Shown piece by piece: positions 37,639 through 39,469 of a DNA stretch of 64,000 nucleotides. The notes beneath the pieces are model-generated. The model did not search any database, had not been told where the DNA came from, and saw only the letters and a program-made list of their open reading frames with translations. The DNA lies in contig WRCN01000001.1 of assembly GCA_009783885.1 (NCBI GenBank), forward strand, positions 62,001-126,000, written 5' to 3'. The position numbers and the translations under genes are program-made. How positions within the stretch are numbered: the stretch's first letter is position 1; each line of letters starts with the position of its first letter. This DNA is from Bacteroidales bacterium (GTDB lineage: Bacteria > Bacteroidota > Bacteroidia > Bacteroidales > P3).

Positions 37639-37670
37639 CTATATAACGCTCGACTTTCGATTTTCGTATA
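37639..37670. repeat. 32-nt shared element E, copy 1 (uvrC/DUF2851 divergent spacer)
   Basis: CTATATAACGCTCGACTTTC then GATTTTCGTATA. The same 32 nt occur at 53882-53913 (one difference) and 63077-63108 (two differences). Here the last base is the A of the uvrC ATG and GTTAATAA follows at 37676. In the minus direction it lies upstream of DUF2851 plus BECR copy 1. Confidence 0.8.
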
Positions 37671-39469
37671 TGATTGTTAATAACTTCTTAAAATTTTTTG
37701 CTCAGTCGCTACCCGAAAATCCGGGGGTTTATCAATATTTCGATGCTGATAAAAACCTTATTTATGTGGGGAAAGCAAAGAATTTAAAGAAGCGTGTAAG
37801 TTCCTATTTTAACAAAGATCAAGAAGGTAAGACCAGAGTGTTGCTAAGCAAAATTGCCGACATCAAGTATATTGTTGTTGACACGGAATTTGATGCTTTT
37901 TTGCTCGAAAATAATCTGATCAAAAAATATCGTCCGCGCTACAATGTGATGCTCAAAGACGACAAAACTTACCCATGGATTTGTATCAAAAACGAGCCGT
38001 TCCCAAGAATTTTTTACACGCGCAACCCGATTAAAGACGGTTCGCAATATTTCGGCCCATACCCATCATTGAAAATGATGAACACATTGTTGGAATTGAT
38101 ACGGAAAATCTACCCTTTACGAAATTGTACACTCAATCTTTCGGAAGAAAATATCGCCAAAAAAAAGTATAAAGTTTGTTTGGAGTATCACATCAAAAAT
38201 TGCAAAGGACCTTGTGTCGGTAAGATTTCGGAAGCAGAATATTTGCAAAATATTGCCGAAATCAAACAAATCATCAAAGGTAATATTTCGCAAGTATTGA
38301 AAGAGTTGCGTGGGCGCATGATGAAATTCGCAGAAAACTTGCAATTCGAGGAAGCACAAGCCATCAAAGAAAAATTGGATGCGTTGGAAGGTTATCAAAG
38401 CAAATCCACTGTGTTTAGCAACACGCTTCAAGATATTGATGTGTTTGCGATTATAAAAAGCGAGGAAAATTTTTACGTGAATTTTTTCAAAGTTGTAGAT
38501 GGTGCAGTAGTTCAAATTCATACGTTAGAACTCAAACCTCGCTTGGACGAAACGTCCGAAGATATTTTATCTTTAGCGATTGTAGATATTCGCCAACGTT
38601 TTAATAGCAAGGCTCAAGAGATTGTTTTGCCGTTTGAATTATCATTAAAAATTCCGAAAACTACACTAACTGTACCGAAAATTGGGGAGAAAAAAAGTTT
38701 GTTAGAATTAGCCGAACGTAACCTGAAATTTTATCTGCTGGAAAAACAAAAACATCAAAATTTGGTTGATCCGGAACGTCATAGTAAACGCATTTTGAAC
38801 CAAATGAAAGACGATTTGGCACTACCTATTTTGCCAACGTACATCGAATGCTTCGACAATTCCAATATTCAAGGCGACTATCCTGTTGCAGCGATGACGG
38901 TGATGAAAAACGCCAAACTTTCCAAAAAAGATTATCGTCATTTCAACATCAAAACCGTAGAAGGCGCCAACGACTTTGCCTCGATGGAGGAAATTATTTA
39001 TCGTCGCTATAACCGATTGTTGGCTGAAAACGGCGAATTACCACAACTCATTATTGTTGATGGCGGGAAAGGGCAACTATCCGCCGCAATGAAAAGTTTG
39101 AAAAAACTTGGGCTCTCTGAAAAGATATATTTAATCGGCATTGCCGAGCGTTTGGAAGAGATTTATCGCCCCGGAGATCCACATCCGTTGCATTTGGACA
39201 AAAAGTCAGAAACCTTAAAAATGATTCAACAATTGCGCGATGAAGCCCACCGTTTCGGCATCACACACTACCGCAAAAAGCACGAAAAAGGGTTAATCAA
39301 AACGGAACTGACTGATATCAAAGGCATCGGCGAAACTCTTGCCGTGAAACTTTTACACCATTTTCATTCGGTCAAAAACATTAAACAGGCCTCGTTCGAA
39401 GAACTCGAAAGCGTTGTAGGAGCTGCAAAAGCTAAAATCATTCAGAATTATTTTTCGCAGAATGTCTGA
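37670..39469 (+). CDS. uvrC: Excinuclease ABC subunit UvrC
   Basis: 599 residues. GIY-YIG nuclease domain (about 12-95: NPGVYQYFDADKNLIYVGKAKNLKKRV), UVR domain for UvrB contact (about 210-245: MMKFAENLQFEEAQAIKEKLDALE), RNase H-like second nuclease domain (about 395-530: ECFDNSNIQGDYPVAAMTV, IVDGGKGQL) and helix-hairpin-helix DNA binding at the C terminus (LTDIKGIGETLAVKLLHHF). It makes both incisions in nucleotide excision repair. The ATG at 37670 begins inside the end of shared element E, leaving a leader of about 30 nt. Confidence 0.96.
   Translation: MIVNNFLKFFAQSLPENPGVYQYFDADKNLIYVGKAKNLKKRVSSYFNKDQEGKTRVLLSKIADIKYIVVDTEFDAFLLENNLIKKYRPRYNVMLKDDKTYPWICIKNEPFPRIFYTRNPIKDGSQYFGPYPSLKMMNTLLELIRKIYPLRNCTLNLSEENIAKKKYKVCLEYHIKNCKGPCVGKISEAEYLQNIAEIKQIIKGNISQVLKELRGRMMKFAENLQFEEAQAIKEKLDALEGYQSKSTVFSNTLQDIDVFAIIKSEENFYVNFFKVVDGAVVQIHTLELKPRLDETSEDILSLAIVDIRQRFNSKAQEIVLPFELSLKIPKTTLTVPKIGEKKSLLELAERNLKFYLLEKQKHQNLVDPERHSKRILNQMKDDLALPILPTYIECFDNSNIQGDYPVAAMTVMKNAKLSKKDYRHFNIKTVEGANDFASMEEIIYRRYNRLLAENGELPQLIIVDGGKGQLSAAMKSLKKLGLSEKIYLIGIAERLEEIYRPGDPHPLHLDKKSETLKMIQQLRDEAHRFGITHYRKKHEKGLIKTELTDIKGIGETLAVKLLHHFHSVKNIKQASFEELESVVGAAKAKIIQNYFSQNV

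Follow-up and report, generated by a model that had tools for sequence, protein, structure and literature searches.

An element repeated across a genus of termite-gut Bacteroidales as a candidate promoter of competence genes and exchangeable phage-type genes

We analyzed a 64,000-nucleotide stretch of a Bacteroidales genome (GenBank assembly GCA_009783885.1, contig WRCN01000001.1, positions 62,001 to 126,000; hereafter the window) that carries three copies of a 32-nucleotide (nt) element, which we call E. Comparison with related genomes indicates that E is a real, genus-wide and apparently regulatory element whose reach is wider than the toxin-like genes next to which it was noticed. We think it probable that E, together with conserved boxes upstream of it, forms the promoter and activator site of a competence regulon that has captured phage-type genes; gene content makes competence the best reading of this regulon.

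Distribution and architecture of element E

We searched five genomes of one genus (G000 to G004), consisting of the window's own (2.05 Mb) and four sister species, all termite-gut Bacteroidales metagenome-assembled genomes (MAGs) whose termite origin we took from isolate names. A pattern search identified 26 copies of E in the window's own genome, and a sequence-only profile built from 41 copies identified 31 there and 24, 31, 27, and 18 in the four sisters, clearly separated from noise. A scan of 84,980 species, which possibly left out the records of the window's own genome, found the exact pattern only in four termite-gut Bacteroidales MAGs of the genus. Applied to 36 genomes from other genera, the profile gave no convincing match apart from two copies in G010, each of which precedes a RhuM gene, and the dprA genes of other genera were without E. 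A phage origin of E was rejected, as two E variants had zero exact matches in 2.9 million viral contigs.

Within the window, E reads TATACGAAAAtCG-N8/9-GCGTT(T)ATATAG on the minus strand, and its three copies (Table 1) lie where a sequence-only reading of this DNA had placed them, with 0 matches in dinucleotide shuffles of the window sequence. That reading had allowed at most two differences among copies, which is correct for copy 1 against copy 2 (1 position) and copy 3 (2 positions) and not for copies 2 and 3, which differ at 3. It had rightly described a perfect palindrome, GTTAATAA-N9-TTATTAAC, exactly 25 nt past copies 2 and 3, and a single arm at copy 1 that falls within the first codons of uvrC, the ATG of which begins at the final base of E. 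Genome-wide, where E occurs in about 30 copies, the palindrome has 17 exact copies, 17/17 of them at E sites, and the sole further match (1 mismatch) is at control level. The idea that E and an RNA promoter bracket a unit did not generalize: only 2 exact matches to the common 27-mer exist genome-wide. Searching the window against Rfam gave a tRNA as the sole match and no known RNA family at E.

In the driven direction, the order is one or more GTTRATAAC boxes, 4-56 nt, TATACGAAAAtCG, a variable spacer, GCGTT(T)ATATAG, a leader of mostly 20-60 nt, and an ATG. Open reading frames (ORFs) of at least 100 amino acids begin no more than 75 nt away in 97/125 cases on the driven side versus 10/122 on the opposite side. 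Three box arrangements occur: an inverted pair, seen at window copies 2 and 3, a tandem pair spaced by 20-21 bp, and a single box. The box centers lie 10-11, 30-31, 41, 51, and 62-63 bp upstream of E, with the palindrome partner at 46. This spacing corresponds to steps of one or two helical turns and suggests that the boxes are placed as a bound activator would be relative to RNA polymerase. The standard Bacteroidetes -7 box, TAnnTTTG, was present in only 6 of 120 driven leaders, so that by this measure the driven genes have no standard housekeeping promoter, versus 58 of 117 on the opposite strand, where it belongs to unrelated neighbors such as ispG, rbfA, and miaA. Variable-sequence stem-loops stand straight after E, with arms of at least 7 in 19 leaders versus 4.3 expected, which fits a transcription start immediately behind E; we infer that E is the transcription start region, and transcripts would then begin just downstream of GCGTTATATAG. 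Orientation, distances, helically phased boxes, and the missing usual promoter on the driven strand all favor the earlier suggestion that E works toward the minus direction as an operator or alternative promoter. A reading of TTATYAACA as a DnaA box was considered as well.

The spacer between the conserved halves of E differs by species, being AAAGTTG-like in G000 and G002, ACTTTTTT-like in G001 and G004, and GGGGG-like and one base longer in most G003 sites, and the species-wide type holds at orthologous genes too. Such a concerted change could reflect co-evolution with a trans-acting factor or homogenization by recombination, and may provide a natural experiment on how a regulator and its sites co-evolve. 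The few G000-type elements in G003 are on short contigs and could be contamination.

Competence genes and phage-type cargo

Across species, E stands before genes for DprA, ComF, a ComEA-type helix-hairpin-helix (HHH) protein, SSB, RadC, ComM/YifB, DUF2851, and an RprY-type response regulator, as well as an operon of a 276-amino-acid exported protein and a 678-amino-acid HHH protein, LTD proteins, and a DUF5689 protein. Pfam/NCBIfam calls were above cut-offs for DprA, ComEA-type HHH, RadC, SSB, and YifB/ComM, and below NCBIfam cut-offs for ComF and RprY. At the canonical genes, E was found in 4 genomes for DprA, 4 for ComF, 3 for ComEA, 3 for SSB, and 2 for RadC; comM stands directly behind E in three genomes (G001, G003, and G004) and behind intervening cargo in two, namely a MuF-C gene in G000 and a broken PBECR3 gene in G002. 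If we assume 10 com genes among 1700 genes, the chance of finding 5-6 canonical com genes at 31 sites is approximately 1 × 10−7 to 1 × 10−9. In Riemerella anatipestifer, another member of the Bacteroidota, transposon mutants show that transformation depends on ComEC, DprA, ComF, RecA, a DUF5689 protein, and an HHH protein of the periplasm (PMC8459023). DprA, ComF, the HHH protein, and the DUF5689 protein of that set have E-driven counterparts here, and the two gene sets together make a competence regulon the best reading.

Several observations weigh against it. As comEC is without E in all five genomes and dprA is without E in G003, the regulon is incomplete by this criterion. The recA gene, whose upstream region was not itself inspected, is not among the genes behind 131 E sites. 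DinD and an operon of cargo and uvrB are also compatible with a DNA-damage regulon, and a spacer that changes in concert within each species is unexpected for a plain promoter spacer. As a separate observation, comEC of G001 (L251) and dprA of G003 (L245), both lacking E, carry tandem TTTTAACACTTTTTAACAC repeats (period, 11-12 bp) that precede an ordinary promoter and may form a second regulatory element.

Many of the remaining E sites stand before small phage-type genes of the PBECR1, PBECR3-like, LPD3, MuF-C, ORF6N, KilA-N, RhuM, DinD, YhcG, GIY-YIG, and RAYT-type families, some of which match PADLOC defense candidates (KilA-N, PDC-S22; ORF6N and RhuM, PDC-S05; DinD, PDC-S13). Invading phages and conjugative elements are known to carry PBECR, MuF-C, and LPD domains (PMC5512222). 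LPD3 as a stand-alone gene occurs almost exclusively in this genus, and a strong E lies upstream of 12 of 23 such genes, or 14 of 23 with two weaker matches. This cargo varies between species: a PBECR-like gene adjoins lepA in G001 and an ORF6N gene does so in G003, and PBECR1 follows DUF2851 in the window and not in G002. The sequence-only reading had also offered E as the end of a mobile unit, which is not supported for E itself, since E is retained at the orthologous competence genes of 2-4 species and it is the genes behind it that come and go. The sole absence examined, at the rmlD site, concerns E and its gene together, with diverged flanks.

From the repeat family, its orientation, the box geometry, the target genes, and the cargo turnover visible in these genomes, we propose that E acts as a non-standard promoter and that, with one or two upstream GTTRATAAC boxes, it would form the site at which a single trans-acting system binds and activates, turning on about 30 transcription units simultaneously. 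The core of the regulon would be dprA, comF, comEA, ssb, radC, comM, the HHH-protein operon, the secreted LTD and DUF5689 proteins, DUF2851, and the RprY-type response regulator; the rest would be phage- or mobile-element-type genes (PBECR, LPD3, MuF-C, ORF6N, KilA-N, RhuM, and DinD) recruited into the regulon and exchanged between species. These units would be co-induced during competence, and the cargo may act on incoming or competing DNA or RNA. A bolder version, which we put forward only tentatively and regard as doubtful, is that this Bacteroidota lineage, which has a gene set for natural transformation, places DNA uptake under a promoter type of its own that also carries exchangeable stand-alone phage-derived or defense-candidate genes expressed only while foreign DNA is taken up (competence-coupled defense or sabotage), with conserved E sites as docking positions for cargo swaps.

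Two further features were observed in the driven leaders. Seven leaders of the KilA-N class (L017, L031, L035, L084, L091, L012, and L046) contain a strong palindrome and short frames such as MKGKFNxxEFxxIRK directly behind E, and an inserted copy of a dispersed GTCATGTCGAGCGTAGTCGAGACATC-type repeat separates E from the driven gene at seven loci (L010, L013, L020, L021, L064, L073, and L074).

Alternative explanations and known systems

E might instead control a regulon that responds to DNA damage (SOS-like), given that DinD (NF008573 above cut-off) is among the E-driven families, that ssb, radC, and the PBECR1-uvrB operon are repair-related, and that uvrC abuts copy 1. We consider this unlikely: comEA, comF, dprA, comM, the HHH operon, and the secreted DUF5689 and LTD proteins belong to DNA uptake and processing, uvrC is on the non-driven side of copy 1, and neither recA nor lexA, which were not individually located, was recognized behind the 131 E sites. 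A mobile promoter, or a repeat resembling a miniature inverted-repeat transposable element, for which competence genes would be just some of the landing sites, could account for some 30 copies with spacers homogeneous per species (AAAGTTG, ACTTTTTT, or GGGGG types), orthologous genes included, for the gained unit at the rmlD site, and for the RAYT-type transposase genes behind three E copies. Against this, E almost always points the same way with respect to the driven gene and has a fixed box phasing, it retains orthologous positions at DUF2851, comF, dprA, comEA, ssb, comM, and rprY, and neither conserved outer ends nor a target-site duplication was seen around it, which leaves such a repeat improbable.

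The excess of stem-loops straight after E could also point to an RNA-level leader or attenuator of the driven mRNAs. However, many leaders have no stem-loop, dprA in G001 and G004 begins approximately 2 nt past the E match and leaves no room for a leader, and the constant part consists of E and its upstream boxes, whose phasing fits a protein on DNA; this explanation is very unlikely. We rejected a dedicated operator of toxin or toxin-antitoxin genes, the least probable explanation, because core competence genes account for many of the families behind E and the copy-2 unit is a single gene without a partner. The earlier description of E as lying upstream of toxin-like genes is accurate insofar as a BECR-type gene or remnant follows each of the three window copies, but the copy-3 gene is a remnant and E, which is genus-wide, also stands before core transformation genes.

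A competence regulon of this kind would resemble known systems. The streptococcal ComX cin/com-box and the Haemophilus CRP-S/Sxy site likewise place one short site before dprA, ssb, comEA, comF, radC, and comM-type genes, and both regulons, like that of E, are joined by accessory non-uptake genes. E differs from these sites in its sequence, its phylum, and its bipartite form with helically phased upstream boxes, and its regulon differs in that comEC is outside and recA was not seen behind E sites. TACGAAAA may resemble the streptococcal TACGAATA box. In Haemophilus influenzae, toxTA is a horizontally acquired toxin-antitoxin operon under a competence promoter that is often deleted among strains (PMC6957337), whereas the E cargo comprises many unrelated phage-type families in many units, mostly single genes without an antitoxin. 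PBECR, MuF-C, and LPD3 have been described as domains of polyvalent proteins, with solo versions mentioned (PMC5512222), and the same families occur in the E cargo; polyvalent proteins, however, are weapons of invaders, while the E cargo consists of stand-alone chromosomal genes under one host promoter type.

We found no description of a competence control site for Bacteroidota in the literature (open-licence papers), and the consulted passages of the Riemerella study report no regulatory site (PMC8459023). If E is such a site, it would allow the regulon to be read straight from sequence, it would flag DUF2851, the HHH-protein operon, the secreted LTD and DUF5689 proteins, and the RprY-type regulator as candidate transformation genes, and it would tie stand-alone polyvalent-protein domains to competence.

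Genes and other features in the window

The genes behind the three window copies are listed with the elements in Table 1. The copy-2 product is best called PBECR-like, a candidate member of the family: sister homologues match PBECR3 at 0.0015-0.02, and the invariant His47 and Thr114 fit the described PBECR active-site layout (PMC5512222). Its structure model is of good quality (predicted local distance difference test score 85) but gave weak matches to HigB2, BrnT, and RelE toxins in the PDB (E 0.1-0.6) and moderate structural matches to phage proteins (E 7 × 10−5). No antitoxin partner was found in this unit, which is missing from the equivalent site in all four sister genomes. At copy 3, a 44-amino-acid piece (62610-62744) resembles the C-terminus of the PBECR1 protein.

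Table 1. Copies of element E, their boxes, and the genes behind them (window coordinates)
Feature	Position	Strand	Remarks
E copy 1	37639..37670	-	promoter-like element, 25 nt upstream of DUF2851 start codon; same place in G001, G002, G003
Single GTTAATAAC activator-like box, copy 1	37676..37684	.	overlaps uvrC codons 3-5; box position class +4
DUF2851 gene	36345..37613	-	first gene of copy-1 operon; Pfam PF11013, 453 bits; E-driven in four species
PBECR1 gene, phage-type BECR nuclease	35866..36324	-	second gene of copy-1 operon; Pfam PF18809, 5.6e-17; missing at same place in G002
E copy 2	53882..53913	-	sequence match and profile
Palindrome of two GTTAATAAC boxes, copy 2	53939..53963	.	25 nt from E
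133-amino-acid PBECR-like gene	53440..53841	-	lone gene behind copy 2; invariant His47 and Thr114 in 8 homologues
E copy 3	63077..63108	-	sequence match and profile
Palindrome of two GTTAATAAC boxes, copy 3	63134..63158	.	25 nt from E
Degenerate PBECR1-like remnant	62610..63055	-	behind copy 3; short ORFs only

Two features near copy 2 were also observed. Between rmlD and the PBECR-like gene (53297-53445) lies a possible small RNA with its own promoter and one long hairpin (-44.6 kcal/mol), without an Rfam match. A redoxin gene (54062-54592, within 53991-54745) stands between an attC-like junction (TTTAAGAGTTAGATG) and a 145-nt attC-like hairpin (minimum free energy -47.6), and with these flanks looks like a single integron cassette. 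The same promoter with a TATTTAAGAGTTAG-type junction recurs at seven loci (L004, L010, L014, L046, L070, L071, and L097), often on the far side of E, and these are possibly many single cassettes behind promoters.
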